A stretch of 25,670 nt of DNA from assembly GCA_036939755.1 (NCBI GenBank), contig JALLAZ010000226.1, positions 1 through 25,670 on the forward strand. The letters run 5' to 3'. The notes under the pieces were generated by a model. That model was not told where the DNA came from. It was given only the letters and a program-made list of their open reading frames with translations, and made no database searches. This DNA comes from Stephanodiscus triporus (lineage: Eukaryota; Bacillariophyta; Thalassiosirophyceae; Thalassiosirales; Thalassiosiraceae). Below, one piece after another: positions 536 to 25,600 of this stretch (within the stretch, counting starts at the first letter, position 1; every line of letters starts with the position of its first letter). The position numbers were made by a program, and so were the translations under genes.

Positions 536-650
536 CTTTGAATAGAGATCTAGGACTTGACTTAAGTTGATGGTAAAAAGTGATCTTTAATCTGTTATTG
601 GTAAATGTTTAAATAAATAAAACTGAATAAAACTTGTAATTTAGCATAGG
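536..650 (-). repeat. LTR, 3' copy of the gypsy element
   Basis: This 115-bp block recurs at 5031-5145 with about seven mismatches and no gaps. Since the element is read on the minus strand, this is the 3' LTR. Inner TG...CA ends can be drawn (TGAATAG to TAGCA), but similarity extends a few bases beyond them on both sides, so the true termini are uncertain by 3-4 bp. It is short for an LTR. Confidence 0.88.
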
Positions 651-653
651 ATA

Positions 654-662
654 TCCTCCCCC
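654..662 (-). other. Polypurine tract of the gypsy element
   Basis: On the minus strand this reads GGGGGAGGA and lies immediately upstream of the 3' LTR. That is where the plus-strand primer of an LTR retrotransposon belongs, so it supports the assigned orientation. Confidence 0.65.
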
Positions 663-689
663 ATGGAATTTGAGAATTGAAAACAAGAA

Positions 690-1967
690 TTGTATCAATG
701 CCATGATTGATAACTGTTCACGTTGGATGTAGGGAGTGATCCATTGGATACTGACGATATCCACATAAGCACCGCACTGAATCTTGACAGTGCCATTCGC
801 AATCACCTCAGTGATAGCAAAGGGGCCTTGAGCATATGTTGAGGGTGAAATCTTACCACTGCCGCATGGTTCATATGACTTCTTGAGTACCAAGAGAACT
901 TTGTCTCCGTGCTTGTACTCATGAACCACATGCTTTTTATTTTCCTCGGCGTTGTTCTCCTGCGCCAGTTTGAGATGTAGCACTTTGATGCACTCCCAAT
1001 CAACCAACACCTTCTGTCAAAAAAGCATATTGTATCCAAATGCTAACTGAGCTGGTGAGTAAGTTCTTCTGGCCGGTGATGCTGCACGAAGAGCAAAAGC
1101 ACACACTTGAATCAGTGTGAGCTCCAAAGATTGTGGCACAAAGTTGTTCTCCAAGAATGCCGTGGATGCGGTCAACAACCGTGTTGGCCGTCGGATTTTT
1201 GATTGTTGTCAGTTTGCTCTCAATTCCATAGCTGTCAAGCATCTCCTTACATTCACAACCCATGAGTCAGGACAGTTGTCATGTACGACCTTCCATGGGC
1301 GAGGGTAGCAGCATAGCCATTCTTTGTCAAGTGCAGTAGCAGTCACAATTGACGACACAGTTTTGATCCAAGCAAACTTGCTCCATCCGGTGCATGCATC
1401 CACCATCGATAATAGGTTGATTTTGAACGTTTTAGTTTCTCCCTTCTCCTCATCAAATCATCTGACTTTCCAGGGTCTGCATCAATCGACATGAACAATC
1501 TCCCAAGGATCTTTATCATGAAGGACTGAAGTGAGTGGAATTATTTTGTAAGACTTTTTGTTGGTATTTTTGTTGCGTTGACATTCTTTGCAACTGAGCA
1601 CGTGCTGCTCAACCATTGGACACAAACCCTTCCAAGTAAACATTTGATCAATCGAATTGATAATCCTGGTGATTCTGGCATGTTGCAAGTTAGAGTGATA
1701 CCCCTCAACAATCCGTTGTTGGATGTCCTTTGGGACCCAAACAAGGCCGTTGATAGTGGTGACTTTGCCGCCGTCAATAGATTTGGCTCCAAGTCTCTCT
1801 AGCATTTTTCCAGAATCAATCCATTGTTGGAGTTTCGCATCGCTTCTCTGAGCAATCATAATGCATTTCATGTCAAGGGGGAAGTGGTTGCATTCCTCCC
1901 TGTCCAGATTATTCTGCAAAATCAAAAAAAGCTCTTTCACAATTTCCATTGGTTTGTTGTCCACCAT
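690..1967 (-). pseudogene. Integrase remnant of the gypsy element
   Basis: Integrase pieces lie in several frames. The segment 1967-1482 holds an H2C2 zinc finger (GYHSNLQHAR, then CKECQRNK). The catalytic core continues at about 1406-1209 with VDACTGW (first Asp) and VHDN (second Asp). It then runs into the 1263-1000 frame with NPTANTVVDRIHG, where the usual catalytic Glu of the NPxANxxxERxH motif reads Asp. A GPY/F-like C-terminal module (YAQGPFAITEV, then WITPY) lies at about 860-725 within the frame 1010-609. The frame changes between modules make this a dead gene. Confidence 0.83.
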
Positions 1968-2094
1968 TTCAAGTCAACTAAGACTGTCCGCTGCAGTGTT
2001 GTCCGTCCCTTTGATGTGGATGAATGTTGCGCCGTATTCTGAATCCAGTAAAATTTGTGCTCTTTGCTCTCTCAAATTGACGTGGACCATGTCA

Positions 2095-2405
2095 TCGCAA
2101 GTGAGGTTTTGATGATCCATGTAGATTCAAATTTTGCACCTCCAAATAATCTGTTCAAAGTGCTTGCACGCTTTAATCGCTGCTAAAGATTCCTGACCTG
2201 TGACCTGTATTTTAGTTGGGTGACATTGAACTTGCGTGAAAAGGTACTGATTACTGATGATGTTTCCATCTTGTGCCAGCACCGCTCCCATAGCATATGT
2301 GCTGCTCGCGTCAGGGTATATATCATATGGGCAAGAGAATCACTTCCAAAACCACTGCTTTTAGCTTGTCAAATGCTTGCTGCTGTTCCTCCCCCCAGAT
2401 GAACT
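2095..2405 (-). pseudogene. RNase H remnant of the gypsy element
   Basis: Reading the minus strand through stops gives, in order, WGEEQQQAFDKLK, PDASSTYAMGAVLAQ, a QESLAAIKACKHFEQIIW segment and MDHQNLT. This is the succession typical of the RNase H domain of Ty3/gypsy polyproteins (AF-LK, DAS-GAVL, E-LA, DH-NL). At least two in-frame stop codons interrupt it. It lies between the RT and integrase remnants, as expected. Confidence 0.78.
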
Positions 2406-2539
2406 TAACATCCTTCTATGTGAGTCGAGAAATGGGTTCGCAAATCTCAGCTTGACGCGGTATGTGATTCTTAATGAAATTGACCACACCAAGAAGACTG
2501 TGCACTCCCTTAAGGATGGATTGAGTCAGAGAATCACAC

Positions 2540-3300
2540 TCACTCGTGATGGGAGAGGTTCGTATCCTGTCCAATCAATTGATATTCAAGGTATTCAATG
2601 GACTCCTGGCAAAAAGGACTCATGTCTGCACTGACCTGTAGCCCATGCTCTCCTATCTTTTTGAGAATCTCATCCAGAATTGCGAGATGCTCCTCGAATG
2701 ATTCTCCCTTGAAATGGAGAATATCGTTGATGTATGGGAACGGGCATTGCTCTCCCATGTCCGCAAAAATATGAGCTATTCTTGCCTGGAAGAGGTTCGA
2801 TGCAGGCATTACCCCCATGGGCAATGTGAGGCACTCGTAAGCACCAAAGGGCACGACAATTTTGAGTTTCTTTCTTGCCTCATCATTCAGCGGGATCAAC
2901 GGGTAGCCCATGTTGAGATCAATGCTCAAGCATACAGAAATCCCCTAATCAAAGTGAGAATCTCTTCTGTCGTCCAGCGAGGAAATTCACAACAAACGAG
3001 ATTTGCATTAACTTGACAGAAGTTGATAACAAATCAAACCGTACCATTTTTCTTCAGCACTCGGAAAGCTGGGAAGGCCCATTTGCATTCTTCAAATTCT
3101 TCCAGTGTGAGGTGACCGAGGCATTCAATCAAACACTGCCAAGCGACCTTGAGCTCCACGACCTCCCAAATTTTGTAGCAAAATCAGGTAAGGTTTTGCA
3201 TGGTGTGGAATTCCATCATCTTTCAAACGTATTTCAACCAGTGTGCCATTGTAATAGCCGCATCCACCTTTGAAAACGTCCTGGTTTTTGACCAGAATGT
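2540..3300 (-). pseudogene. Reverse transcriptase remnant of the gypsy element
   Basis: The upstream frame (3544-3125) contains DVFKGGCGYYNGTL followed by AKPY, the typical entry to a gypsy RT. The palm then appears in the frame 2929-2540: MSIDLNMGYPLIPL (motif A), FGAYECLTLPMGVMPAS (motif B region) and YINDIL (motif C). The catalytic pair normally reads YxDD, and here the first Asp is Asn. A frameshift separates the two pieces. Loss of the catalytic Asp plus the frame breaks makes this RT inactive. Confidence 0.85.
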
Positions 3301-3480
3301 TAAATAACAATGCTTGCTTTGCGGACGTTAGTTTCGTCCCATCGTGCTTCGGGACCTCCAATAGATCGGGCATTTCATAAACAGCCTTTAACAAGTTTGC
3401 TTTGGTTGGTTTGGTTAGAAATAGATCTTCAGCAAAGCTGACGGCTGGCATGATTTTCGAAATTCCTGCCTTTTCTGCTT

Positions 3481-3870
3481 CTATCTTGGATTGCTTGCAA
3501 ATACTTTGAATGCATGCATCAGGCCAATATCCACTAGGGACCATTGGAACTTCAATATCGGGTCCCCAGGTAATTGTTTTGTTTGTTCATGATAGATCGA
3601 TTCAAGCACATCCATCATACCAACTCCCATGATGATGCCATATCCAAAATCTCCCGATTCTGGTGGGGCCACTTCAAATGTTGCTGTGAAAGTCCGATTA
3701 CGACTAAGTGCTGGGAGTCAAACAAAGTCAATTGTCACTGAGATATTCATCTCTATAAGTCCATTTGCTGTAAATATATGATTCTCCCTTTTGATGTTGG
3801 AATTCGTAGCCAAGTGTGTTTGCAAAAGGATGTGACATCATTGCAAATCCTGTGAAACTATTATCAATTT
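3481..3870 (-). pseudogene. Protease-region remnant of the gypsy element
   Basis: The C-terminal half is visible as RTFTATFEVAPPESGDFGYGIIMGVGMMDVL. This resembles the Ty3/gypsy aspartic protease pattern ending in YDIIIGRDLL, with the loop to the next domain following. The catalytic DTG/DSG box cannot be found in a clean frame; the corresponding stretch (about 3720-3860) has several stops. The assignment rests on position between gag and RT and on this partial motif. Confidence 0.5.
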
Positions 3871-4930
3871 AGACAGTTGTTGCATGGCGTGTTCCTTCCT
3901 TCCCTGGATCTTCAAGGATGGTGATGCCATTCACCTGCTTGTTGTTAGATGCTTGAACCATCATGGCCAAGCCGTCATCAGATTCAAGGTTGAGATCCTC
4001 GTAATGATTGTTGTTGATCTCAGACGTCTTTTTGGATGTTGAGTTGCTCCCCTTGGTGATTCTTGTTATCAGGGCAATCATGCCATTCATGTTTGCCGTC
4101 ATGTTTGCGGCAGAGCATTTTCTTATCGTCTTTCGATTTTCCACCCTCTCCCCCATTGATCTGTTTTCCATTGTTCTTATCTGACTTGTGATCCGAATTG
4201 TTATGTTTCGGATTCTCCTTCCTCTCTAGGAATGCAACTTCAGCTTTAAGGTCAAGCTTTGTGTTGATAATCGACAATAATTTGAGAATCTCATCTTCAT
4301 CATCAAGATTGTCACCGCCGTCCACAATATTTTCCATAAGCTTTGGGCAGAAGACTTTTTGTGACGACCTTATTTTACTCCTCAATTATGTACTCATGAG
4401 CAAATTTGCAATGGTACGGTAACATCGAATTGATTTGGAAGAATCTTTGGGCACCATTTTGAAGGGTGGAGTTGGGAGGAATTTTAATCTTTTCTTCGTT
4501 CAACACTTTGCACTGTTGCTTATAAGCTTTTGGACCAAACGTCTTTGTGCTTAATCTTTTCAGCAACCAAATGAATCCATCTTTATCAATGTTATTCCAA
4601 TCCGCTACATCTCCCATGATATTCAGCCAACCTTTCTTAGCCTGACCAGTAAGTGCTCGATGCATTGATTGTCCAAGTTATTGCGAATCGCCATTGTTCC
4701 ACATGTCACATAAATCGCCTAATCCAACGATTTGATCCATGAGAATCACTAGGCTTGCATTAATATCTCCAGTTTTGAAGCACATGATTTGTTCGGAGAC
4801 TTCAGAGTAATCCGCTTCATAGAATATGGCTTTGATTTTGCTATCATTTAGTTTGGGATCCTTAAAATGCAGGATGCATTTGAGTTGAGTTGAGGTTTAT
4901 TTTGTTGCTGTGCTTGGTTGCCACCACTTT
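3869..4930 (-). pseudogene. Gag remnant of the gypsy element
   Basis: The first part (about 4870-4670) reads FKDPKLNDSKIKAIFYEADY and onward, is interrupted by a TAA near 4680, and resumes at 4665 with MHRALTGQAKKGWLNIM. This is the helical, tryptophan-containing capsid-like pattern of diatom gag proteins. A second frame (4385-4020) is lysine-rich and ends in a zinc-knuckle-like CRKHDGKHEWHDC, where His replaces the second Cys of a CCHC knuckle. An acidic stretch precedes it. Stops and frameshifts break the gene. Confidence 0.75.
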
Positions 4931-5030
4931 TCAAAGCTGGTTTCTTCAATGGCCATTCTTTGCCATTGCGCACGAAAGAACTTAATTGATCTCCTATTAA
5001 ATTTGAGTTATTTTGAACAAAATGTCCTAT

Positions 5031-5145
5031 CTTTGAATAGAGATATAGGACGTGACTTTAGTTGATGGTAAAAAGTGATCTTTAATCTGTTATTGGTAAA
5101 TGTTTAAATTAATAAAACTGAATAAAACTCGTTATTGAGCATAGG
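5031..5145 (-). repeat. LTR, 5' copy of the gypsy element
   Basis: This is the partner of 536-650 and the 5' LTR on the minus strand. The bases just inside it read ATAGGACATTTTGTTC on the minus strand. That does not match the initiator-tRNA type of primer binding site (which starts TGG), so the primer is unknown. Confidence 0.88.
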
Positions 5146-5559
5146 TTGCGCGTGGACGGAGGCAATCGATGGAGGCACGAGCATCGTCGTTGAGTATTTA
5201 TGAGGAGATCGGGGGCAAAAAATGAATAACATCATAATACATGGGGGGCGATTAAAAAAGCACAAGAGCAAGGACCCTGCACATTGAGTTTAGGGGCTTC
5301 TTTTTGTAAATAGCATTAGGAGTTTGTTTGAGCATTACTATTCAGAAGCATCAACCATTGAACGCATGCATCGATTTCCGGCTTTGATTTGCTTGAACGC
5401 TTATTAAATACCCTGAACAGTCGCTGGTTTTCGATGCCCTTTCGCACCACGGCCTCCCCCATCCAGGACACAGGGGAGGAGTTTGTTGGAGCGAAATGAG
5501 CGGTTCGGTTCAAGTGCTCTCGTCACTTGCGGGATTGTATATATATCTAGTTTAGGAAG
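5146..5559. other. Spacer between the two retroelements
   Basis: About 0.4 kb without a recognisable gene. The right part is probably the 3' untranslated region of the LINE to the right. An alternating TA run sits at 5537-5546, just past the LINE stop codon. No poly-A or poly-T tail marking the LINE 3' end is obvious; the best candidate T-run is the short one near 5301. A 65-codon minus-strand frame (5513-5316) is not recognised. Confidence 0.5.
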
Positions 5560-8500
5560 CTACATACGTACCAAGTAAGTATCTTCATCAGTGAGGAATG
5601 AGTAGAGGTCGAAGCTAGGGGCGGTTGGTGGTAAGTTGAAGGTACGTGTGGCCGAGCATAATAAAGAACTAAACGCTTTTGAAATTCCAAGTCCCAGGAG
5701 TTGCATTGTGTGTATACTTGGTGTGGGTGCAGTGTATGAGTTTCCAAAAAAGGTCCGTTTAGTTGGGGACGTAGATTCACTCCAATTTATATCTGCTGTG
5801 GTGAGTATCCCAAGTGGACATGGGGGGTTAGATGCTCGAGAGTACATTAGGTTTGCATTTGGGCGATGGTATTTTGTGTTAGAGTGTGATGTTCGCCATG
5901 GTTTCTGTGGCGGATGAGTGGATGTCGTAAGGAAAGCTTGTAACATAGGACCAAAGCGGCCATGTGGGTCAATGGCGAAGGGGATGAGGACCATGTTTTT
6001 GTTGTAGATCTCTCCGATGACAGTGTCACCATGAATAAATGGGGATGTGTTAGAAGATGGCTTGTGCATACGTCCAAGTTTACCGCGTTCATGACGTTGA
6101 AGATTGTTATCTGCATTGGCAGTTATAATATTTAAGATGTCTTCAGTTGGCATGGTTTTTGGCGGAAGAGGAGAACCAGTAATATTAATGTCTGCGCCAA
6201 CGGTAGTGTATGGGCATACATGTGATGATGTGGGGTCAGGCGAGAAGGAAAAGTCAAATGGCCTGGCTGTTGGGTCAGAACGGAGGTGAAGGAGTGGTTC
6301 AATAGTGAGTTGTGTGTTTGGATGTATATAGCCGGCCTGTGCTAACACTGGGGATAAAGCAAGGGCAAAATCTTGAGCAATGACATTATGAGCGCGTTTC
6401 TTGTTTCCTCTTTCACAACTGAAGGCATGGTCTCCGAATTCGTCGTGAAGTTTATGACCGCAGATGCATGGGGTATTGTGGGGGAAGATTGGAAGTCTGA
6501 GTTTGCGTCTGAGAGATAAGAGAAAGGTCAGTGGTGTGAGGCGATTCTTGATAGGGCATCTTGACATCGCAATCAATGGGTATGACATAGCAGGAGATAG
6601 GAGGCTTGGGAGGAGGTGGAAATGTTCAGGATGATGCGCGAACATGTGATTGTATAAGTCGGCTTTGACAATTAAAGCGACATGTTTTTTTATGCGACTG
6701 CGTGCACTGTGAGGAGAGAGGGTGGTGAGAAAGTACTGCGCGAGATCTGGCCTTGGGATGGTGGGTGGACATGCTGTGGATGCGAGTTCCGGTAGAATGT
6801 GATTGTATCGTTGGAGGATGAGTGATTGTGGGTTGGTCTGTGTGGAGTATAAGTCGGAGATGGTGCTGTGGAGGGGGACGTTGTGGAGGTACTTGTTGAG
6901 TCGTATTCCCCCTATGGCATGTCGTGTCGATGTTGTAAATGTTAGCATAAAATCTGGTATTGCTCTTGAGCGAGGGTCAATGATGCCAAGGCCGCCTGCT
7001 TGGAGGTGTAGTTGTGCTATCAGTAAAGCATGGTGGGGTAAGGTAGGGCAACCAATGAGATCAGAGATGAATTTGGCAATAATATGATTTGTTGCGGATG
7101 TTAAGGGGCCATTCCAGTCAGTCCATGTAGGTGGGGGGTTGTTTGTGTCGTAATGATATAGGACATCACTTCCGAGAAGATGGGGTAGTTTTTGGATTAA
7201 ACATTGCGCAAATAAGCGCAGTCGAGTGTGTGGGTCGGAGATATTTGTAGTCATGAGTTCAATAGCGTCTTGAACAGCAGTCAATTGTGTGTCAAAATAG
7301 TCTTGAGAGAACTCTGGAGATCCTACCGGTGATCCGAGAAGGCGAAAACCCATTGTGAGTTCAACAGGAAGAGGAGGTTGAGTGGAGTCGATGGTATTAG
7401 GTTTGGTGGAGTATGTGTTGATTGTGTTGGAGATGGACGTTGCAAGCAAGGGGTTGAGGGTGGCAATGGTTGGCAGGGGGGAGTGTCCTGATGTTGAGGT
7501 GAGTATTCTTGTTTTCATAGGGTTAAGGAAACAGCCTAATGGTGCGCCAATACAGTTGAAGTTGTCGCAAAGGAATTGGAGGTCTTCGAGGGGCACACAA
7601 GCCGAAACATCGTCAACATAACCAAGAAGGTGGGTAATGCCTCCATTGCCATCATCACCAAAATCACCAGCAAGGAGACGTGCTTGAGCGCGTTCCCTAA
7701 GAAGTTTATCGAGGGGTTGGAGAAGGCGTGCAACAACGAGTGAGGCGAAAATTGGTGAAAGAGGGCAGCCTTGGCTTACCCCTTCTTCCATTAGTAGAGT
7801 GCGCCAAGTTCCGTCAGCCCATTTGTGGTGAACCGTTCCAGGATGGTCGTAGAAAAGTGATGTTAAAGGAAGGATTTCAGGGAAGGATTCTTTGATAACG
7901 TCAAAAAAGGCTTCACGGGAGACGCTGTTGAATTGATTAGTTAAATCGAAGAATACCGCTGCTCGTGTAGGAATTGAGCCTTGGGATTGGGGAACAGTGA
8001 TGTATTTTTCAATTTGAAGCTGCATGGTATTGATAATAAGGTTTGTGCCATTTGGTGTTCCGACAGCGTAGTTAAAAGGAAGCATGTGACGAGCAAATTT
8101 TTCTCGGAATGTATGGGCAACATGACTTGCAATGAGGCGACGTATGGCTGTAGGGATCCCTAGTGGGCGTAGTTTAGTTTTATCAACTGGATCCTTGTAG
8201 AGGCAAAAGAGGTAGACATCAGTGAAGTATCGTGTGATTGGGGGTGGGATGTTGTTGGTGTAAATTTGATTAAAGATAAAGTTTAGATGTTCAGAGATGT
8301 TGGGTAGCTTAGCTTGGACAAGGTCTATAAAGATGTCGATGGAGTCAGCGTTGACTCCTGCACCTTTGTGACGGCTGGCGTGTAGGATGGTGGTGCAAAT
8401 ATCCCCAGGTAGAGAGTATATTTGTGGTGGTGTTGGTTTAATTGGATAGTTCTGGGGTGGGACTGGTGGTGTGTAAAGTTTTCGGACAATATGGATATTG

Positions 8501-9342
8501 GTGTTGTCAATGGGAGCAATGGGAGTGGAGGTGGTAGATCGGGCTATCGCCGTACGGTATTGGTCAGAATCTGCAGCTTGTTGGGCAGGTGACATGTAAG
8601 AAGTGGACGTAGGATTAGCATTTTGGGAGTGGCGTGAGCAGGTCATGGCGGCGTTGTAGACGTATTCAATGTCGCCTGAAAAGATGGAATTGATGCGGTC
8701 CCGTATGGTGTGTGGGATTGATTTGTTAAGACGTTCAGCCGTAGTAGAAGGGGCAAGGATGAGCATGTCAAGATGAAAAAGAAGCCACCAAAAAGGTGTG
8801 GAGTCAATAGAATGGGTATAGGCTGCAGAGATGGCGTGAATTGTAGTGGCTTGGAGTTGGAGGAATTTGGATTTATTCTTCTTACGGAGATGCCTTCGCC
8901 AGGTTGACCGAAAATCTGGAGGGTGATGGGTCGTGTGAGTCATGATGAAGTTAATGCCGTGGTGCCATAAGTTGTAGGAGCCGTGATCTGCATTGGAGTG
9001 GAAGTGGGTGGTACAAATGTCGAGTGGTGTTGATAGCAAAATGGGAGGGTTAGTGAACTGGAGGTCAGGTAGAAGGGGTGGTGGGGGGTGATGTGTGATG
9101 TTGTGCATAGAGAGTTCATCATGTGAACGGAAGAATCGTGTTGGGGCCGTAGGGCAAGATGTGTGGCAACAGGAGTATATGTTTGCTTCATGACATATTG
9201 TCTGATCAGCGAGGTGGAAAGTGTGTTGGTGGTCTTCATGGTTGAGGTGACGGAGGAGGGTGGATTTGGTATTAAATCGTCGGGTAGTGTGAAGGCCGTA
9301 GTGAGTACAACCTGGAATTGGGCATGAGAAGGAATCAGACAT
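5560..9342 (-). CDS. LINE ORF2: zinc fingers, reverse transcriptase, putative endonuclease
   Basis: A 1260-aa protein predicted to nick the target and reverse-transcribe the element RNA. Two C2H2-like fingers lie at about residues 7-40 (C7, C12, H32, H35/38) and 58-85 (C58/59, C63, H80, H84/85). The RT domain spans about 370-620, with LRPLGIPTAIRR (391-402), motif A FFDLTNQFNSVSR (D467), motif B GVSQGCPLSP (521-530) and motif C YVDD (575-578). A thumb-like region follows. CICGHKLHDEFGDHAFSC (959-976) resembles the CCHC knuckle before the RLE of R2-type elements, and HN follows at 985-986. Candidate RLE acidic residues are D1030 (RPFDF) and D1051 (GADINITG). The ATG overlaps the ORF1 stop as ATGTCTGA, in the +1 frame relative to ORF1. 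The RT call is firm; the endonuclease call is inference from layout. Confidence 0.92.
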   Translation of the reverse strand: MSDSFSCPIPGCTHYGLHTTRRFNTKSTLLRHLNHEDHQHTFHLADQTICHEANIYSCCHTSCPTAPTRFFRSHDELSMHNITHHPPPPLLPDLQFTNPPILLSTPLDICTTHFHSNADHGSYNLWHHGINFIMTHTTHHPPDFRSTWRRHLRKKNKSKFLQLQATTIHAISAAYTHSIDSTPFWWLLFHLDMLILAPSTTAERLNKSIPHTIRDRINSIFSGDIEYVYNAAMTCSRHSQNANPTSTSYMSPAQQAADSDQYRTAIARSTTSTPIAPIDNTNIHIVRKLYTPPVPPQNYPIKPTPPQIYSLPGDICTTILHASRHKGAGVNADSIDIFIDLVQAKLPNISEHLNFIFNQIYTNNIPPPITRYFTDVYLFCLYKDPVDKTKLRPLGIPTAIRRLIASHVAHTFREKFARHMLPFNYAVGTPNGTNLIINTMQLQIEKYITVPQSQGSIPTRAAVFFDLTNQFNSVSREAFFDVIKESFPEILPLTSLFYDHPGTVHHKWADGTWRTLLMEEGVSQGCPLSPIFASLVVARLLQPLDKLLRERAQARLLAGDFGDDGNGGITHLLGYVDDVSACVPLEDLQFLCDNFNCIGAPLGCFLNPMKTRILTSTSGHSPLPTIATLNPLLATSISNTINTYSTKPNTIDSTQPPLPVELTMGFRLLGSPVGSPEFSQDYFDTQLTAVQDAIELMTTNISDPHTRLRLFAQCLIQKLPHLLGSDVLYHYDTNNPPPTWTDWNGPLTSATNHIIAKFISDLIGCPTLPHHALLIAQLHLQAGGLGIIDPRSRAIPDFMLTFTTSTRHAIGGIRLNKYLHNVPLHSTISDLYSTQTNPQSLILQRYNHILPELASTACPPTIPRPDLAQYFLTTLSPHSARSRIKKHVALIVKADLYNHMFAHHPEHFHLLPSLLSPAMSYPLIAMSRCPIKNRLTPLTFLLSLRRKLRLPIFPHNTPCICGHKLHDEFGDHAFSCERGNKKRAHNVIAQDFALALSPVLAQAGYIHPNTQLTIEPLLHLRSDPTARPFDFSFSPDPTSSHVCPYTTVGADINITGSPLPPKTMPTEDILNIITANADNNLQRHERGKLGRMHKPSSNTSPFIHGDTVIGEIYNKNMVLIPFAIDPHGRFGPMLQAFLTTSTHPPQKPWRTSHSNTKYHRPNANLMYSRASNPPCPLGILTTADINWSESTSPTKRTFFGNSYTAPTPSIHTMQLLGLGISKAFSSLLCSATRTFNLPPTAPSFDLYSFLTDEDTYLVRM

Positions 9343-12300
9343 GGTTGACGTTGGTAGTCGCAGTGTTGTTCGCAGGAGTGTTGTTCCGGTTCTTGTGGTC
9401 TAGGTTCCATTGTGAAACTGTCATCAAAAGATGGGGAAGGACGGTGGAGGGATCAGCGAAGTCGTCGTTGTTATTGATGATGGTGTTGAGATCGGTGTAT
9501 TTGTCAAGAGGACAAATATTGAAAGCGATAGCCCAGGTGGGATCGGTGGAGAAATCATGGACTTGAGCTTGGGTGGGGTTGGATGTAGCCCCCGCCGTAG
9601 TATCTGTGGTCGACGCGATAAAAGTAGGACATTGAGTTTGATGTACGGTTAGCTGGTTGGTTGCCGTGAGGAAAAGATTAGGGCAAGATGAGCAACATCG
9701 AGACCATCCAATGTGAAGGAGGTGGTCAGATGTGAGGGAAAGGAAAATATTGTTGTGGATGTGTTGGACATGCATTTGAAGTATCTGCATTCCATCAGTG
9801 GAGTTGGGGAGGAATGGGTTACCGTTGTTATACATGGGACAAGAGGTGACTTGACAATATCTTGGCCATTCGTGTGGGTGGATTGGGGTCATAGAGATAT
9901 CGGAGGGAGTGTAAGTTGTTGGGTTGTTTGTAGTGCATGTGGGAAAGGAGTCGGTCCAAAGAGAAGAGATGATGGTAATGATACGTTTGATGGTTGGGGG
10001 TGTTGGTTGGGGTATTTCAAGGAAGATCTCTTTGTGGTTGATGAGTTTTGGGTGGGGAGGGGAAGTCGGGATGAGGTGGTGATTTATTTGGAGGGGAGTT
10101 TGATCAGATGGTTCGGAGTCAAGTTCATGTAGGAGTGTAGTGGTGATGGTGGCAACATCTTCATCGATCGGGACTGTGAATGAGATGAAAGTTTTTGATG
10201 GGGTAGTGTGGCGTCGTTTGTGGGGGGAGGGGTTGTGGGAGGAGGCTTGACTACCAAGGAGTATACCGGAATGAAGGGATTGGTCATCGTCATCGTTGGA
10301 ATCGTCAATGGGGCAATGTGTTGTGGTAATGAGTGTTGGATGGGGGTTGGTACATTGGATGTTCGGTGGGGGTTGGTCAGCAAGTGTGTCGTTCATGGTG
10401 GCATCTGTTTCCGGAGGTAATTTTTCTTCAAACGTATAGGAGTCGGTAATACATCGACCTTGACTGGTGCGACGTTCAGTGGCAGCCAAGCGGAGGGCTT
10501 TGGCGTCAGGTGATAAGGTGTCGAAGTAGAAACATTCGTTGTGGGAAGAGTTCGTGGGTGGGTAGGGGCCGACGTGAGCGATAATACGTGGGCTGGGGTT
10601 GTTAAGGTTGCTTGTGTCATGACAGCAATTGGCATTCATGTGGTCGAGGTCGCCTTGGGAACGGATATGTGGGTAGAAGAATTGAAGGTGGTTAAAAGCT
10701 TGTGACCAAGTGTCAAAGGCATGATGGATAACGAAGGAAACGCCTGAAGTAAGGTGGCGGAGTCCCCCGCCGTCGAAGTCAATGTGATATACGTTGGCTG
10801 AGGCGATGCCTCCTGCGGCGTTAACGATGGCATGATATCGTTTGGTAGGTGTGATGTTGAGGTTGAGAACGTTGCGGACCGTAGGCCGAAGGTGTCCAAG
10901 GCTGCGATCTGTGATGATTTGGTGTTGGGGGTTAAGGAAGGGGAGGGGGTTAACAGTGCCACGTCCGCGACCACGGCCAGGGATGTTTATGGAGGAACGG
11001 CCTGGAGGAGATTGGTAAGGGTTTTTCCTTGTTTTAGTAGCATATGTTGGGTTTGTGTAAGGACTGAGAGGTGGAGTGGTAGGGGTGGAAGGGGAGGATG
11101 GGGGGAGCGTGGAAGGTGTAAGGTCAACGACGTGACGTAAGTTTTCGACGATCTTGGATGTGATAGTGCTTGCATTGAGGTAGGAAGTGGTGCGGCCAGT
11201 GGTGAAGATCGTAGTAAGGAGAAGATTACTGTGACCAGCAGAGAAGTCACAAAAAATTGCGAGGCACTCGTCGAGGCATAGCACAGATTGGGTGATGTGG
11301 CGGTGGTATTGGAGAAACTTGGGGTGTATGCGGACGTTGCGGACTTGCTTGAATTGATGTTCTTGGTGGAGTTGATGGTTGTGAGTGTTAATGGTGCGGC
11401 CAAGGGTGAATCGCGTCTGGTCGTTGGTGTCGGGAAAAGCGTGGAGGTGGACCTCGAATGGATTGAGGATGCCAAAGAGGTGGAGAGGGTGCTTGCGTGT
11501 GATACAAAGCTCTGTGAAGGCATCACGGAGGATAGAAGCGTGAGGTTCAGTCATCGTTAATACGACGCCAAGCATATTGTGTACCTTTGGAGTGTTTTCT
11601 GGAGTTGTCATTCGCACTTTTTTGGTGGAGATGATGTGGAGGATTTGAGTTCGCGTTTGTAGGCGGTGTATCTCGTCAGGTAAAGGTCGTGTGGGCATGT
11701 TGCGTTTCCAGCAGTCCTTTAATGCCATGAGGATAAGGTATCCAAAGTGACGATAGGTATCGGTGTTATCCCACTCGTTGGGGCCTAGAATCGTTCGTGG
11801 GCCAACACCGTCGATTAAGAACATGAGGCGTTCGTTCATATCGTTAATGTGTGGAGTCGTGAATGTGAGAAATTTTGAGATGGGAGGTAGTGTGGAAATG
11901 GTTCGGATGGCTTGATTGGGGCTCATGACAAGGTCTGCTAGGCGGGCGTAAAGAAGGGCGTAGTCATGGCTCGCTGTATTCGTGAGTTTGTTTTGTGTAG
12001 ATCGAGGGGAGAGGTATACAAAGCTGTAGTATGTGCTGGTGGTTCGTTTTGGGTTGTTGATGGGTTTGTCATAATTGAAGAAGGCGACAATGTCGACCTT
12101 GAAGGGGAAGGCGAGGAAATCAATGATGGCATCGATTACTGGTTCAAGAGTTGACGTAGTGGGGGCTTGGTCGGAATTTGCGGAGGCGGGGATGGCAATC
12201 TTGAGGATAACATGCATGCGTTTATTGGCGTCGGTAGGGTTGTAGACGCGGCCTTCCGCAATTCTGCGGGATTGCATGGCTAAATCATTGTTGTGGAGGG

Positions 12301-13858
12301 TGCGCGTTTCTTCAAGGAAGGAAGTTATGATGCCGCGTGAAGAATTGATGCGGGTAGTAGAAATTGGGGGAGAGAACGTGGGAGGGAGGACTTCAGATTG
12401 TGAAAGGATGAATGTATCTTCGGGGTCATCTTCGTCGGTGGCGGCCACCGGGGCCGTGGTTATTGGAGGGGGAGGAGGAGGGGTTGTAAGGTAAGGTGGA
12501 GGAGGAGTAATGTGTGGGGTGTGTTGGTTGTGGAGAAGAGCTTGAAGGAGGGTGGTGCGAACGTTGGGATCCGTATTGTTGAGAAGAGAAGTGAGTGCGG
12601 TTGAATCATTATTGCCGACGAGAGTCGTGAGAAGAGTGGATAGGTCGGTGAGGGAGTCCTTGGAAGCGGGATCCGTCATTGAGAGAAGCGTGTGTAGGTA
12701 TTGTAAGAAGGATGGTCTCGTCAACGTAAAGGAGCAGTGGGAAGCAGAATCGGGCGTGATGTGGGAGGAGGGGGAGGGAGAGTCTGGTGTGATCTGGGAT
12801 GGTGATAATTGCTGTGTCGTCGACGTAGGTGTGGATGGTGGAAATACCGAATAAGACGCCGAGGGTGATGGTCCATCGATTGCGTGGGAGTATGATTGAG
12901 GTCGTTGTATTATCGTGGGATAAGATAATGGTGAGGGTGGGAACGGGAGAGGTCGAGTTGGTGTAACTGGATTGTGATTGAGTAAGCATTGTGGTTGGTT
13001 TAGGTTGTGTGAGGTTGCGGTGTGATGGTGTGTTTGCGGTGTTGGTGGATGGAGAGTAACTTCAAGGTAGGAGATGTTTTGTGTTATTTTTGTTTCGCGT
13101 TTCTTGGTTTTTGTGAGTTGTGCGGGGCGTAATGCAGGATCGGAGGCATAATCGGATAATAGTACGGGGAATATATTGGAGAAATATGTCGTCCATGCAG
13201 TTTTCACGTTCTTTGAGGTGTCGGTTGATAATAGTGGAAATAATATTTCGGAGGAATGTTCGGAGGAATGTGTGTTCCGTGCAATCTGGGCGGTCTGGGC
13301 GGATAATATTGGAAGTAATATTTCGGAGAAATGTGTGTTCCATGTAGTCTGTGCGGAGAATACTTCAAATAAGAGTCCGGAGTAATATATAGTCTGTGCT
13401 GTCTTGGAGGTCATCTGCATGGGAGTTGGTATGGGAAGGGTTGTGTACGTGGGGGGTGGGAGGAGGGGGGTTGGCGGTGTGGTTTGACCATGATGGAGTC
13501 GATGGGCGGAGGTTGTGGTAGGTAAGTAAGGCGATGTGAGTGTTGTATTAAGTAGTGGGTGGGGGGGGGGGTGGTCGATGGCGATTGGCGTGGGTTGTTG
13601 TTTTTCGCGGAGGAAGGGGGTGAGTAGTGTGCGAGAAAAGGCATAAGGAGTCAAGGCAACGAGGGGCGGTGTGAAAAGGGGTGGTTGCACGAAGGCAGTG
13701 GCGATTAGCCAAGCAATAAAGATGGGGACGAAATGGCGACGGGAGAAGGTGTGTGTTGAGACGTGTATCAAAGGAGTATGGTTTTGGTTTGGCCAAGGTG
13801 GTGGTTCGATGGGCGGAATGCCGACGATGCGGGGGGTGGGTGTAGTTGTTGTCTGCAT
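9335..13858 (-). CDS. LINE ORF1: giant gag-like protein of unknown fold with C-terminal fingers
   Basis: A 1507-aa protein with no family I recognise. Residues 1-500 are Pro/Thr/Ser-rich with a degenerate repeat at 152-235. About 505-912 looks globular, with regular hydrophobic spacing and no P/T runs. A Pro/Ser linker and a basic RGRGRG patch (962-967), possibly RNA-binding, follow. A second folded segment (about 1005-1080, YHAIVNAAGG to DHMNANC) comes next. Two zinc-finger-like clusters lie at 1335-1368 (C1335, C1340, H1363, H1366/1368) and 1388-1410 (C1389, C1392, H1406, C1410). By position it is the ORF1 nucleic-acid-binding protein of a LINE. It is several times longer than the ORF1 of L1-type elements (300-400 aa). 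The extreme N-terminus may be 5' UTR that happens to be open; internal Met codons could be the real start. Confidence 0.8.
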   Translation of the reverse strand: MQTTTTPTPRIVGIPPIEPPPWPNQNHTPLIHVSTHTFSRRHFVPIFIAWLIATAFVQPPLFTPPLVALTPYAFSRTLLTPFLREKQQPTPIAIDHPPPHPLLNTTLTSPYLPTTTSAHRLHHGQTTPPTPLLPPPTYTTLPIPTPMQMTSKTAQTIYYSGLLFEVFSAQTTWNTHFSEILLPILSAQTAQIARNTHSSEHSSEILFPLLSTDTSKNVKTAWTTYFSNIFPVLLSDYASDPALRPAQLTKTKKRETKITQNISYLEVTLHPPTPQTHHHTATSHNLNQPQCLLNHNPVTPTRPLPFPPSPLSYPTIIQRPQSYSHAIDGPSPSASYSVFPPSTPTSTTQQLSPSQITPDSPSPSSHITPDSASHCSFTLTRPSFLQYLHTLLSMTDPASKDSLTDLSTLLTTLVGNNDSTALTSLLNNTDPNVRTTLLQALLHNQHTPHITPPPPYLTTPPPPPPITTAPVAATDEDDPEDTFILSQSEVLPPTFSPPISTTRINSSRGIITSFLEETRTLHNNDLAMQSRRIAEGRVYNPTDANKRMHVILKIAIPASANSDQAPTTSTLEPVIDAIIDFLAFPFKVDIVAFFNYDKPINNPKRTTSTYYSFVYLSPRSTQNKLTNTASHDYALLYARLADLVMSPNQAIRTISTLPPISKFLTFTTPHINDMNERLMFLIDGVGPRTILGPNEWDNTDTYRHFGYLILMALKDCWKRNMPTRPLPDEIHRLQTRTQILHIISTKKVRMTTPENTPKVHNMLGVVLTMTEPHASILRDAFTELCITRKHPLHLFGILNPFEVHLHAFPDTNDQTRFTLGRTINTHNHQLHQEHQFKQVRNVRIHPKFLQYHRHITQSVLCLDECLAIFCDFSAGHSNLLLTTIFTTGRTTSYLNASTITSKIVENLRHVVDLTPSTLPPSSPSTPTTPPLSPYTNPTYATKTRKNPYQSPPGRSSINIPGRGRGRGTVNPLPFLNPQHQIITDRSLGHLRPTVRNVLNLNITPTKRYHAIVNAAGGIASANVYHIDFDGGGLRHLTSGVSFVIHHAFDTWSQAFNHLQFFYPHIRSQGDLDHMNANCCHDTSNLNNPSPRIIAHVGPYPPTNSSHNECFYFDTLSPDAKALRLAATERRTSQGRCITDSYTFEEKLPPETDATMNDTLADQPPPNIQCTNPHPTLITTTHCPIDDSNDDDDQSLHSGILLGSQASSHNPSPHKRRHTTPSKTFISFTVPIDEDVATITTTLLHELDSEPSDQTPLQINHHLIPTSPPHPKLINHKEIFLEIPQPTPPTIKRIITIISSLWTDSFPTCTTNNPTTYTPSDISMTPIHPHEWPRYCQVTSCPMYNNGNPFLPNSTDGMQILQMHVQHIHNNIFLSLTSDHLLHIGWSRCCSSCPNLFLTATNQLTVHQTQCPTFIASTTDTTAGATSNPTQAQVHDFSTDPTWAIAFNICPLDKYTDLNTIINNNDDFADPSTVLPHLLMTVSQWNLDHKNRNNTPANNTATTNVNHV
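13153..13405 (-). repeat. Degenerate coding tandem repeat in LINE ORF1
   Basis: About four imperfect units of 15-25 codons, each ending in a pattern like SEILLPILS or SNIFPVLLS and beginning with AQT or TDT. On the plus strand the repeated DNA appears as TTCGGAGGAATGT and similar words. It covers about residues 152-235 of ORF1. Confidence 0.6.
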
Positions 13859-14067
13859 TTATATTATGGTAGAGGTAGTAAGTGGCAAGGCGAATCGCAG
13901 ATCGAAGTGCTAAAATAGTCAAATGTTCCTCGCGACCACTCGAGGCAAATCCTTCGGTCTTCTCAATCAACGCAGCGCAAAGAGATAGACATCAGAAGAA
14001 AACAATACCCACCGAACCCCTCGCCGCCCGTCCGTTCCATCCTCGACCATATACACTTCATCGTAGG

Positions 14068-18966: not shown

Positions 18967-20736
18967 TTAGCAGGAGAGTTTCGCATCATTATCGTTCGAC
19001 GGAGGCCACGCGAGGGATTTGGCACCGGAGCCCCCGGCCGCACCCCGCGACGAGGGGGCGACGGAAATATGAAATTTCTCGCCGAGGGCGGAAGACAGGG
19101 AGGCGTCGAGCGTCGCCTCGATCGCTTCGCAGTTCGACAACGATCCAACGTCGTCGCAATGACTGTGGTCGAAGCTGCCATCGAATCCCCCCCGATCGAA
19201 GGATGCGAAATCTAGAAAGACGTCGTCGTCGCCGACCCCCACGGAACTGGGACGAGATTCGAGCGGCGGCGCCGCCCGCGACGACGACGACCACGACGAC
19301 GTCGTCCTGTCGCGGTCGTTGTTGTGCCTTTGCACCACCTCGCTCGCCTTCTTCCGCTTGGCTGCGGCCGAGTTCGGGTTGAGCTTCTTCGCCTCGACGA
19401 CCTTCCTCGGTTTGGTCGGGGGAGATTGACTTCGTACGATGCCCTGCCCGTCCGTCCTGTACGAGCCCCCCCCCATCCTGACGACCTCCCCCTCCCCCTC
19501 CCCCCCCCTCCCGCCCTCCCCCTCGTCCCTCGTACGATCCGACCGCCTCCTCCTCCTATCGGGAAGCGGCCGATTCGAGTACAGCGCGCTCAGGCAAATG
19601 ATGACCTCGGACATGTCCGCCCTATCCCTGTAGTCCAGAGCGAGCATCCTGTCGATGAGATCGACTAGGCCCGTGCCGTACGGGTTGTCGTCCGGGACCT
19701 TGTACCTACGCGACAGTATGGCGAGGTTGGACCCTTCCTCGAAGCAATCCCGACGATACGCGAGGGAAAACAACGAGCATCCCAGGGCCCATACGTCCGT
19801 GCTCTCGGTGAGCCTCCTCGTCATGTACAGGTCGACCATCTCCGGCGCGCGGAACATTTGCGTCGTTGTCCTGGACACGACCTCCTCGGCCCTCCTACGT
19901 TCCTCCGGCGTGCGCAAGTCGGTGTGCCCGACCACGGCCGAACCGAAGTCGCATAGCTTGTACGATCCCCCGGCCTTGATCAGGAAGTTCACGGGCTTCA
20001 AGTCCCTGTGTATCACCGGCGGACGCTGAGCGTGCAGGTACGACACGGCGTTGCATATCTGCCCGAACGCGATGACGAGGGAGGGCAGGTCGAACCCCCC
20101 CGCGCACGACGACGACGCGGCGGCGGCGGTACCGCGGTACGACGACGACGACGACGACGACGACGACCTCATCCGCCTAATGGCGTCGAACGCGGTGCCC
20201 CCCTCGCAGTACTCCATGAGTATGAGATGCTGGGACGATTTGACGTCGCCGTTGACGACGTTGTTCGTCGTGCAGGCATCGTATACCCGAACGATGCTGG
20301 GGTGGGACAGCACCCGCAGCAGCCTCGCCTCCTTCTCCGCCATGTGCTGTTGGGCCGCGTTCGAGATGGACGTTATCTTGAGAACCATGTGACCTCCCGA
20401 TGACGACGACGATGATGATACGGACATCGGCGACGGGCTCATCATCTGTCGATGTCGACCGCCGCCGCTGCCACCACCACCCTCCAACGGCGACGACGAC
20501 GACGGCGACGCGTTCGAATCAGAATCCAACGCATCGCCGCCGCAGCCGCCGCCGACGAAATTATTGACCCCCCCCCCCCCGACGGCGGCGGCGGCGGTCC
20601 TGGTCCGGACCAAGTACACGAAGGAAAACCCGCCCTCGCCCAACTGCTTGACGATGTCGAGGCTTCGTCCACGGACGGCGATTTGCCTCCCGACGAGATG
20701 CGGACCGAGTCCGAGGCTGTGGTCGACGTTTTCCAT
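18967..20736 (-). CDS. NAK/AAK1-like serine/threonine protein kinase
   Basis: 589 aa with a complete kinase domain at about residues 25-390. Visible motifs are the glycine loop GEGGFSFV (33-40), VLKI Lys (K120), the C-helix Glu (EKEARLL, about 134-140), HRDLKPVN (243-250), DFGSA (263-267), TTQMFRAPEMVDLY (291-304) and DVWALGCSLF (314-323). The activation segment and CFEEGSNLAIL match the Ark1/Prk1/AAK1/GAK family, which phosphorylates endocytic adaptor and actin-patch proteins. A Gly/Ser/Ala insert of about 75 residues separates the glycine loop from the catalytic Lys, and a poly-Ser insert occurs at 191-210. The C-terminal tail is disordered and basic, with repeated Phe/Asp motifs (DFASFDRGGFDGSF) that could bind adaptors. 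The start ATG has a GCAGCATGG context. It appears intron-less and lies head-to-head with the OTU gene. Confidence 0.9.
   Translation of the reverse strand: MENVDHSLGLGPHLVGRQIAVRGRSLDIVKQLGEGGFSFVYLVRTRTAAAAVGGGGVNNFVGGGCGGDALDSDSNASPSSSSPLEGGGGSGGGRHRQMMSPSPMSVSSSSSSSGGHMVLKITSISNAAQQHMAEKEARLLRVLSHPSIVRVYDACTTNNVVNGDVKSSQHLILMEYCEGGTAFDAIRRMRSSSSSSSSSYRGTAAAASSSCAGGFDLPSLVIAFGQICNAVSYLHAQRPPVIHRDLKPVNFLIKAGGSYKLCDFGSAVVGHTDLRTPEERRRAEEVVSRTTTQMFRAPEMVDLYMTRRLTESTDVWALGCSLFSLAYRRDCFEEGSNLAILSRRYKVPDDNPYGTGLVDLIDRMLALDYRDRADMSEVIICLSALYSNRPLPDRRRRRSDRTRDEGEGGRGGEGEGEVVRMGGGSYRTDGQGIVRSQSPPTKPRKVVEAKKLNPNSAAAKRKKASEVVQRHNNDRDRTTSSWSSSSRAAPPLESRPSSVGVGDDDVFLDFASFDRGGFDGSFDHSHCDDVGSLSNCEAIEATLDASLSSALGEKFHISVAPSSRGAAGGSGAKSLAWPPSNDNDAKLSC
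20141..20167. repeat. (GAC)9 run encoding poly-Ser in the kinase
   Basis: Nine perfect GAC triplets on the plus strand encode serines on the minus strand, inside the kinase N-lobe/C-lobe insert. Such runs are length-unstable, so alleles may differ. Confidence 0.9.
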
Positions 20737-21431: not shown

Positions 21432-23152
21432 ATGGCGCCGAATACGAGGGGGAAACGCACACGGAAGGATGCTACCGCCGCCGGGAGAAGGAACGATTCT
21501 CCGCCCTACTCCTCTCCGCTCCTCCTCGGTCCGCATCTCAGGAGGCTCGTACTGCTCCTCCTCGCATCCTGGTTCGTCCTCCACGATTCGCCGGCCGCGA
21601 AGGGGGGGGCGTCGCGGATACGCCGCCGCCACCACGAGGTTCGCGCCGAGCAACAACAACATCATCGTCGTCCCACCACCATCCCGCGGTCCAACAATCG
21701 CTACGCCCACTACCGTTACAGCGGCTCGTCGTCGTCGTCGTCCGCCGACGGCGCGTCGGAGGCCAGCGGCGTCGTCGGCGGCGACGAATCGGAAACCCCC
21801 CCCCGCTTCCATCCTCCTTGGAATCCCTCCCCGAAGATCGATCCGAACGGCTTCCTGTCGGACGCGTACGCGCGTTGTCCCGGGGAGTGGGAGTCGCTTG
21901 CCAACATACGAGGCAGGCACGGGCCGAGGGCGGGGGGAGGGGGAGGACGGCGCGGCGGGGGGGGCATCCTCCTCCTCAACGGCGGCAACAACAAAAACAA
22001 CAAGAAGGACCGACGACGGGCCGACGACGACTACGACGACGACGACGACTACTACTTCAACGAATTGCTGAACGTGCCGGTACTGGTCAGGCAGGTACCC
22101 GGCGACGGGAATTGTCTCTTCCACAGCATATCCGCCTGCCTGCACCACGCGGCGAACGGCACGCACCTGCCGATGAACTCGCACGAGCGCGTACGGAGGC
22201 TGCGGGAGTCGTCGCTACGTCTGCGCAACGCCGCCGTCGACGTGCTGCAGCAACGACAACGACGTGGGAGGACGTGGGGTGGTGGAGGAGGAGGTGGTGG
22301 CTGGACGATGATGATCGGCGGCGGCGGGGGCGGCGGCGGGAGGCGATTGTTCCTGCAGGGGGAGGAATATCTCGACGCGTCCGAGCTTCTATCCGCCGCG
22401 GCCGCGCAGTTCGATCTCACGGGGGAGGAATATTGCGAGTTGATGAGGAAGGAGTGCTACTGGGGCGGAGGACCCGAGATCGTTGCCCTGTGCAACTATT
22501 TGCGAAGGCCCATACACATGTTGAGTTGGTTCGCCTTTTTTTATTTTTTTTGCCGATGGTGTTTCGTCGAGGACGATGATGATGATGAATGCCATTCTCT
22601 CTCTTCTCAAAGCCCCGAGTGGATCGGATTCCTTGTTTGTGTTTTTTCTCTCTTTCGACATATCCCGCGTCCTAACTTTTTCGTCGTCATCGTCATTCTG
22701 TAACGATCCCCCCCCCCCTCGCTCATCGTAGATACGAGGTCATACCGGTCGACGAGTCCGCCGCGCATCGGCGAGTCAACGGCCGGGGCAACTCCAAATA
22801 TTCGTTGTTGTTGCCATCCTCGCGCCGCGGCGGCGGTAGCAACAACGACGATGTCGATGTCAAAAAATTGTCAACCAACAAACAGTTCGCGCTGCGTCGC
22901 ATGGCGTGTTTCGGCTCGCCGAAGTTCGACCGTCGCGAGCCGTTGCACATACTCTCGGCCGACTCGCGCTTCCCGGACGTGGACCCGCATCGCATCCGTA
23001 GGGTGGGGAATCACTTCATGGCATTGTTCCCCGTCGTGGACTTGTCGTCGTGCAAGGTTGATACCGGAGGCGACGGCGGCGTTCGTCGTCGGTTTGCGAG
23101 GCATGCATTGATTGGACGGGGCGGCTGTCGCACGGGATCGGGGGTGCGGTAA
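21432..23152 (+). CDS. OTU-family cysteine protease, two exons, probable membrane anchor
   Basis: I reconstruct exon 1 as 21432-22519 and exon 2 as 22732-23152, giving 502 aa. The intron (22520-22731, 212 bp) starts GTTGAGT and ends in a C-rich tract plus CATCGTAG. Splicing turns the codon after RRPIH into Ile and continues IYEVIPVDE in the right frame. OTU deubiquitinases cleave ubiquitin chains. The active-site box PGDGNCLFHSI (Cys228) is in exon 1. The catalytic His is in exon 2, GNHFMALFP (His457), preceded by EPLHILSADSRFPD. A hydrophobic stretch (about residues 37-51) behind a basic N-terminus suggests a signal anchor. Long Gly- and Asp-rich inserts occur at 167-207 and 283-303. The start codon has a GCCGCCATGG context. 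Gene family is firm; location is inference. Confidence 0.88.
22520..22731 (+). other. Intron of the OTU protease gene
   Basis: GT-AG, 212 bp, phase 2. It contains a T-rich left half and a C9 run close to the acceptor. The exon 1 frame stays open through the intron to a TAA at 22701-22703, so a retained intron would give a 423-aa protein without the catalytic His. Confidence 0.85.
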
Positions 23153-24159: not shown

Positions 24160-24335
24160 TTAATCCGACCTTCTAATTCAGGGCAAATCCAGGGCCAACA
24201 TCCAGTGGTGCTGGCATATTTTATGGTTGCATTGACTAGTTCACTCATTAAACTAGTCAATGCAAACATAAAATATGTTTGGTAGTCCACCAGGGTTTGC
24301 GGCAGTGAATTTGCCTTCAATCCGGAGGTGGTGAA
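24160..24335. repeat. Long imperfect inverted repeat
   Basis: The core arms 24215-24241 and 24251-24277 are 27 bp with one mismatch around a 9-base loop. Similarity continues outward, less perfectly, to about 24160 and 24335 (GGCAAAT in both arms, then further matches). Both arms read outward-in as a related peptide (YFMVALTS on plus, YFMFALTS on minus). This suggests an inverted duplication of one older sequence rather than a simple palindrome. It could be a MITE or a source of hairpin RNA. Confidence 0.8.
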
Positions 24336-24834: not shown

Positions 24835-25600
24835 GCTATTATGAGCCTGTGTTGTAATTACCAAACTAAATGCATATGGGGCCTAAAAAGTATAGACATT
24901 GTCCCAATGTATGGGTTGAAGATGCCTGCAAAGTATTGGGATGTGGTTTCAACTTAAAGGGGGCCATTGGGGATGCTAAAGGGGTGACTGACGATGGCAT
25001 CACCTACTAACAACATATCTCGTGTTATTATACCATGTCTTGTAATTTCCAACCCAAATTAATGAAGGATGTAAAAAGCATGGGCATTGTTCCAATGCAT
25101 GATTGGAAGATGCCCCTAAAGTATTGGGGCATGCTTTCATCTCAAAGTGGCGGTTGGGGCTACCATGGTATAGATAGCACCGGCTAACCTAACAAAATGC
25201 CTCATTCATCTAGTGTTATTGTACCATTTGTAATTTCCAAACCAAATCAATGAAGGATGTAAAAAGCATGGGCATTTTCCCTATGTATGATTGGAAGATG
25301 CCCCTAAAGGTCAACCTAAAGTGTTGTGGCATGTTTTTATCTCAAAGTGGATGAGCTAGCATCGGCTAACAGAATAACATTCCCCGTCATCTAGTGCTGT
25401 TATTACTTTGTATTGCAATATTCAAACTACTGGCAGGTGAGACATATAAATCATGGGAATTGTTCCCATGCACTTGAGGAAGATGCTGCTAATGTTTTGG
25501 AGCATGGTTTCATCTTTAAATGGGCCGCTGTGTCTACCAAGTGTCGGACACCATGGTCAGGGGGGTTATTACAAAATGGCGGGAATAAAATTGAAGGTAG
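24835..25600. repeat. Satellite-like array of about 185-190 bp units
   Basis: Four diverged direct repeats start near 24836, 25023, 25215 and 25399, a spacing of about 184-192 bp. Each contains GTTATT near its start, a TGTAATTTCCAAAC-like word, GGGCATTGTTCC-like and GGAAGATGC words, then GGGGCATG or similar, TTTCATCTCAAAGTGG, and a final CATCTAGTG. Units two and three are closest to each other; the outer two are more diverged. Within a unit, ATGCCCC and GGGGCAT form a small inverted repeat. No coding potential is seen. Confidence 0.82.

Follow-up and report, generated by a model that had tools for sequence, protein, structure and literature searches.

The 25,670-nucleotide (nt) stretch of Stephanodiscus triporus contig JALLAZ010000226.1 analyzed here, called the window throughout, carries on its minus strand a transposable element with two long open reading frames (ORFs), ORF1 and ORF2, arranged head to tail. 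In the open-frame listing, each runs without a break, and the ORF2 ATG sits just ahead of the ORF1 stop, hence the short overlap between them (Table 1). ORF2 has the domains of a long interspersed nuclear element (LINE) whose C-terminal end is probably a restriction-like endonuclease (RLE). An earlier note on this DNA had described two uninterrupted ORFs of 1507 and 1260 amino acids (aa) filling 8.3 kb. Both frames are indeed open, and the end of the element is corrected to position 5538. The two-ORF plan stands for the long frames; a conserved frame at 12609-12989, here called ORF0, had been missed, and the element probably has three.

Table 1. Features of the element, listed from its 5' end to its 3' end
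Feature	Position in window	Strand	Description
Whole element	5538-13858	minus	8,321 nt, from ORF1 ATG to TA tail; borders set by where similarity among copies stops
ORF1 open frame	9335-13858	minus	1507 codons; possible starts Met1 and/or Met394
ORF1 N-terminal arm or leader	12680-13858	minus	aa 1-393; frame maintained, protein constraint weak
ORF0 (probable gene)	12609-12989	minus	126 aa, stop within the coordinates; overprints the ORF1 arm and extends past Met394
Strongly constrained part of ORF1	9335-12679	minus	from Met394, 1114 aa
Putative zinc-finger pair close to the ORF1 C-terminus	9620-9868	minus	ORF1 aa 1331-1413
ORF1 stop/ORF2 start overlap	9335-9342	minus	8 nt
ORF2	5560-9342	minus	1260 aa
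N-terminal pair of C2H2-like fingers	9088-9324	minus	ORF2 aa 7-85; from sequence
Reverse transcriptase (RVT_1)	7498-8181	minus	ORF2 aa 388-615, E 9.4e-10; motif A D466, YVDD D577/D578
CCHC knuckle	6415-6468	minus	ORF2 aa 959-976
Predicted RLE region	5941-6402	minus	ORF2 about aa 981-1134; conserved residues and model
3' untranslated region	5538-5559	minus	22 nt, TA tail at end

ORF2 is matched by 62 database proteins at E ≤ 1e-3, among them two with Thalassiosira names, one with a Cyclotella scaffold name, and one MMETSP transcript. Its order of fingers, reverse transcriptase (RT), CCHC knuckle, and endonuclease region, proposed previously, is seen in the sequence and in the conserved residues. 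The first finger is present in all 12 rows picked for alignment and is missing as aligned in several distant rows of a set of 21 (P0034, P0039, P0042, P0053, P0056, and P0062). The RT motifs are intact, as the earlier note had stated: among rows with a letter at the position, D466 is found in 38 of 38, and D577 and D578 in 39 of 39. The knuckle residues C959, C961, H972, and C976 occur in 37/37 such rows (39 aligned), in the variant spacing C-x-C-x10-H-x3-C. The domain search detected no apurinic/apyrimidinic endonuclease (APE) domain in the element proteins or elsewhere on contig C226.

The C-terminal end of ORF2 is assigned as an RLE on the basis of a confident ORF2 model and of residues in the published RLE order, which support the assignment but fall short of proof. 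Residues K981, E1015, P1028, and D1030 are conserved in all 37 rows that have a letter at these positions, D1051 in 36 of 36, and E1085 and K1088 in 34 of 35; they follow the published order with the variant spacing RPxD-x20-D. The whole-ORF2 structure model has a predicted local distance difference test score (pLDDT) of 88, and its first seven Foldseek matches are R2 proteins; model and comparison both cover ORF2 as a whole. Past the knuckle, where the earlier note had placed the nuclease fold, the model predicts a helix, two strands, a long helix, a short helix, and a strand, which include a helix-strand-strand-helix domain. Two results temper this assignment. In VIA, L1 is level with R2 for the ORF2 model, and the knuckle-RLE region alone retrieves no PDB sequence at E ≤ 10.

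The host assembly comprises 21.65 Mb in 1324 contigs. The ORF2 protein matches 49 places in it and the last 2,441 nt of ORF2 match 36, self included in each count; the remainder of the 36 are 66-90% identical. One other place, on C360, has both frames open, with an ORF2 of 1262 codons (53% identity) and an ORF1 of 1543 codons from its first ATG. Together, the 62 database proteins, the 49 genome places, and this second element place the pattern beyond chance. The closest long match, on C142, is 90% identical over 407 nt, and the matches on C1021 (97%, 39 nt) and C560 (100%, 36 nt) are too short for dating. The proposal that the copy is recent or active, which rested on its intactness, is not borne out: nucleotide and protein searches of the assembly gave no long near-identical copy, a lack that cannot show age because the assembly is fragmented.

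Copies share both ends. At the 3' border, likeness of other copies ceases at 5538, just past the ORF2 stop (...CCTAAACTAGATATATATA). The 3' end was inspected in 13 copies (the window copy, C142, C782, C1112, C525, C161, C970, C1024, C1137, C560, C547, C713, and the distant C360), and a run of TA forms the terminus in 11 of them, with a shorter tail in C142 and C547. In C863, likeness breaks off 32 nt before the common 3' end. At the 5' border, the window copy, C126, and C1021 are alike from the ORF1 ATG onward, the C1021 match (97%) spanning 39 nt where its contig ends. Mutual likeness of the distant pair C360 and C113 begins no more than 1 nt from their ORF1 ATG. In each of the five copies found with a complete 5' end, which come from two subfamilies, that end is the start codon. 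A repeat search of the window found no repeat family framing the element, which is therefore without long terminal repeats (LTRs).

The flanking sequences that were inspected vary between copies. Both ends are readable in six (the window copy, C360, C782, C970, C1024, and C560), and a flanking repeat judged convincing by eye is present only in C360 (GTATCGTA, with 12 extra nt before the ATG). No Rfam large-rRNA, U2, or tRNA match was found in 17 scanned sources, some of which overlap; their single Rfam match is a 5S gene, which lies about 400 nt away from one of the copies. In C126, about 28 nt from the 3' end of another copy lie inverted beside the 5' end, just upstream of the element ATG. 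The stretch at 13880-13934, 22 nt outside the 5' end of the window copy, recurs on C1011 (89%, 56 columns) and C339 (93%, 41 columns) and is a candidate for part of a host repeat, part of a gene family, or a target-site feature. The sense strand of the element (5538-13858) is skewed, with 36% C and 13% G; this skew fades at the element borders, and the C126, C360, and C113 leaders show it too.

Strong protein constraint on ORF1 begins at about Met394, judging from sequence divergence between the window copy and C126. Over codons 1-393, the proportions of nonsynonymous (pN) and synonymous (pS) differences are 0.277 and 0.328 (pN/pS 0.85). Over codons 394-815, they are 0.118 and 0.636 (419 codons), the comparison stopping at codon 815 because C126 shifts frame later. 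The description of a giant 1507-aa ORF1 is accurate for the open frame; however, only the part from Met394 is strongly constrained, and the size is partly mechanical. The upstream 393 codons could instead be a plain 5' untranslated region (UTR), with ORF1 starting only at Met394, a serious alternative to which we give slightly less than an even chance. It would account for the pN/pS over the arm, for the lack of a codon-position signal at nt 75-869 of the window/C126 comparison (p 0.43), and for the two of eight database ORF1 homologues that start near Met394 (P0063 and P0064). However, four of those eight start upstream (the other two downstream), and the first 25 codons and nt 0-360 of C360/C113 do carry a codon-position signal (p 0.036 and p 0.0014, respectively). 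The arm frame is also open in 4/4 elements; per 1000 shuffles of each, it stayed open in 0 for the window copy, 0 for C126, 52 for C360, and 166 for C113, so that the openness exceeds shuffles in the first two. Indels in the arm are mostly in phase, their lengths being divisible by three in all 6 cases for window/C126 and in 5 of 7 for C360/C113, where the other two (8 and 7 nt) restore the frame, although 13- and 1-nt gaps further on in the coding part of the C360/C113 alignment reveal alignment error there. ORF1 may possibly be used from Met1, from Met394, or from both.

The most hydrophobic 19-residue stretch begins at aa 30-44 in all four elements. No Pfam family was found in ORF1, and an AlphaFold model of aa 395-1170, built from 9 sequences, gave no usable fold (pLDDT 33). 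The putative C-terminal fingers have the patterns C-x4-C...H-x3-H and CC-x2-C...H-x4-C in 7 aligned sequences; compared as profiles, they do not match the ORF2 fingers significantly (P 0.1). Three imperfect 50-nt repeats, 75 and 54 nt apart, lie in the arm at 13210-13388. Among the ORF1 homologues, P0067 contains an ORF2-like RT motif-C stretch (GGITH-LLYVDDISACVPL) within ORF1, and P0066 and P0068 contain a SYVDDIAAS stretch in the N-terminal part; a coding stretch for RT motif C may have been copied into ORF1 of these proteins.

ORF0 was found in three genome places: the window, C126, and, in part, C1318. Its opening ATG is present in both the window and C126, where the stop follows the Met394 ATG by 66 and 14 nt, respectively. 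Within element nt 917-1166, 3, 30, and 14 differences fall on ORF1 codon positions 1, 2, and 3 (p 5e-7), so that the position free to vary there is the one of the ORF0 frame. The ORF0 core (aa 17-99, 82 codons) has a pN of 0.091 and a pS of 0.472, a ratio of 0.19. For the whole of ORF0, the ratio is 0.36 in its own frame, compared with 0.9 and 1.4 when the frame is shifted. Set against the window, the partial C1318 copy has a ratio of 0.36; a stop closes it ahead of ORF1. These data indicate that ORF0 is under purifying selection, and it therefore probably encodes a third protein. That the signal in this frame instead reflects an RNA element, or chance in a low-complexity leader, appears unlikely: neither the contrast between the core and the shifted frames nor the position test favors it, the frame is bounded by an ATG and by stops just beyond Met394 in both copies, and sparing of one codon position is not expected from an RNA element. 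In its favor, the three copies belong to one subfamily, one of them being partial with stops after it; C360 and C113 have no significant ORF0 match; and the evidence for the gene is confined to the host genome.

The relationships of the RT were examined in an unrooted tree of 34 rows, comprising 13 from the diatom family, 10 of P0062 type, 3 from R2, and 8 host LINE RTs. The diatom-family rows are the window copy, C360, and 11 of the 62 ORF2 homologues (P0060 was left out as gappy); as to the label, only P0045, P0055, and P0057 among the 62 carry a diatom name. The P0062-type rows are P0062 and 9 of the 120 proteins among the matches listed. The R2 rows are three partial segments from printed alignments, and long branches meet in the tree. 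Six of the eight host rows have Exo_endo_phos upstream, and only the host's APE-type LINEs were sampled. A branch with support of 100/99.7 separates the diatom family and the P0062-type rows from the R2 and host LINE RTs. As groups, the diatom rows are supported at 100/97 and the P0062-type rows at 73/72. A grouping of the diatom family with R2 alone, leaving out the P0062-type rows, is rejected by the approximately unbiased (AU) test (p 0.0005), as is one with the host APE-type LINEs alone (AU p 0.0007). By its sequence, the RT belongs to a lineage other than R2, and its nearest relatives among the sampled rows are the P0062-type family. Because the tree is unrooted, has long branches, and includes only partial R2 rows, it shows the nearest sampled rows and not the relation of R2 to the whole. 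The RT stands apart from the host APE-type LINEs, and the "R2-like" character ascribed to the element earlier is not supported in the sense of close kinship.

R2 proteins (R2Bm, R2Tg, and R2Pm; PDB 8gh6, 9nl3, and 9nl2) nevertheless resemble ORF2 in that a single protein carries fingers at its N-terminus, then the RT, the CCHC knuckle, and an RLE at its C-terminus. R2 differs in its single ORF, its rDNA target, and the place of its RT in the sampled tree. The present element inserts at scattered sites, ends in a TA tail, and carries a large ORF1 separate from ORF2 and probably also ORF0. Its two long frames occur in two subfamilies, its flanks differ between copies, and the insertion into 28S rDNA that characterizes R2 is not seen in the scanned sources. 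An R2-clade element that has gained a second ORF would explain the identical domain order and why R2 proteins rank first among solved structures in both sequence and Foldseek comparisons, and the unrooted tree leaves room for R2 to branch outside the two families as their sister; the AU rejection and the lack of a 28S target nonetheless make this origin highly improbable.

The P0062-type family is very large and widespread, and its proteins have an RT, a knuckle, and an RLE-like end. It shares with the element a knuckle of the form C-x-C-G...D..G.H...C, after which the motifs E, RP, D, and K come in matching order. It differs in its N-terminal finger (C..C...HGP...C), which the element's fingers do not match, in an LKRIP.SR segment (20 aligned), and in having RPDG in place of RPxD. 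A search with a mixed profile matched 2690 proteins at E ≤ 1e-5 among 7990 candidates scored; the profile is dominated by P0062, and this number says little about diatom relatives. The 120 P0062-type proteins among the matches listed are 553-1144 aa long and lie on contigs up to several Mb. We know of no separate ORF1 in this family, for which no search was made. The host APE-type LINEs (C332, C385, C1218, C1302, C589, C1176, and C1295) share a LINE RT with the element but have Exo_endo_phos upstream of the RT, in addition to their separate position in the tree.

Other RLE LINEs also offer points of comparison. The CRE clade (SLACS, CZAR, CRE1/2, MoTeR, and FoTeR) consists of RLE LINEs with fingers, and its targets are given as spliced-leader genes or telomeres in PMC12278014 and PMC12857005. 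NeSL/Utopia elements likewise combine an RLE with fingers. PMC4640811 places Utopia in oomycetes, which are also stramenopiles, and describes it as generally having one protein and a U2 target; the element shows no U2 match in the scanned sources. RLE LINEs are described as single-ORF in PMC5678591, and, according to PMC12278014, two ORFs once reported for trypanosomatid CRE, including that of T. cruzi, have since been questioned, and most species have a verified single ORF. It is therefore unusual for an RLE end to be accompanied by a large separate ORF1, as the earlier note had said in contrasting the element with single-ORF R2.

The element may belong to a named RLE clade (CRE, NeSL, Ambal, R4, or Hero), with only the host and the ORF plan being new, and we regard this as an evenly balanced question. 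These clades stand in the Repbase list given in PMC5753468; R2 is the one named RLE clade covered by the RT tree, which therefore does not speak against membership in any of the others. The two-ORF description of T. cruzi CRE also fits this possibility. Against it, positive evidence is lacking, no U2, tRNA, or rRNA target gene was detected by Rfam at the scanned junctions, and flanks vary by copy. For diatoms, an RTE-like family is mentioned in PMC2806351, PMC8147415 contains none of the LINE terms looked for, and no report of a diatom RLE LINE was found in the open-access literature covered, Repbase lying outside its scope.

Other features of the window lie outside the element. Direct repeats of 115 nt, 94% identical, at 536-650 and 5031-5145 enclose an RVT_1 match at 2579-2944, and related repeats occur elsewhere in the genome; this region beside the LINE (536-5145) is a degraded LTR element. 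An ORF of 589 aa (18967-20736, minus strand) is protein-kinase-like, and another (21432-22703, plus strand) contains a DGNCLFHS stretch that is OTU-protease-like; we take both to be probable host genes. An 82-nt repeat occurs four times at 24852-25494, with a spacing of 185-188 nt, and an inverted repeat lies at 24215-24277.

The gene order, the RT, knuckle, and RLE residues, the common ends, and the dispersed insertion are direct observations. Taken as a whole, the element is best explained, with good confidence, as an RLE LINE that nicks and copies through ORF2, has a separate ORF1 and a probable ORF0, and belongs to an RT lineage other than R2. By likeness to R2, the N-terminal fingers and knuckle of ORF2 would bind DNA, the C-terminal RLE, whose fold the model supports, would nick it, and the RT would copy the element RNA from the nick. 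Copying may begin at the short TA-rich 3' end, as the common 3' end and variable TA tail suggest. ORF1, a large separate protein with C-terminal fingers, is probably an RNA coat or binding aid. ORF2 is probably translated after ORF1 termination by way of the 8-nt overlap, and ORF0 probably gives a third protein.

A more specific reading, which we offer tentatively and consider rather doubtful, is that these copies form a distinct diatom RLE LINE lineage with a three-gene plan, in which ORF1 begins at the element's first codon, ORF0 is overprinted, ORF2 follows, and stops and starts overlap. If this is true, the element would have almost no untranslated sequence (none at the 5' end and 22 nt at the 3' end), implying transcription from outside or a promoter within the coding sequence. 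To our knowledge, it would also be the first LINE to carry an overprinted gene in sense orientation. R2 and other RLE LINEs are under study as tools for writing DNA; they are held to be the LINEs that branched earlier, and they are usually described as having a single protein. A large separate ORF1 in an RLE lineage raises the question of whether a gag-like ORF1 arose with the APE LINEs or more than once. The overall fold of ORF2 is predicted with confidence, and, if ORF0 and the absence of a 5' UTR are confirmed, translation and 5'-end formation in a LINE would become directly testable in this element.
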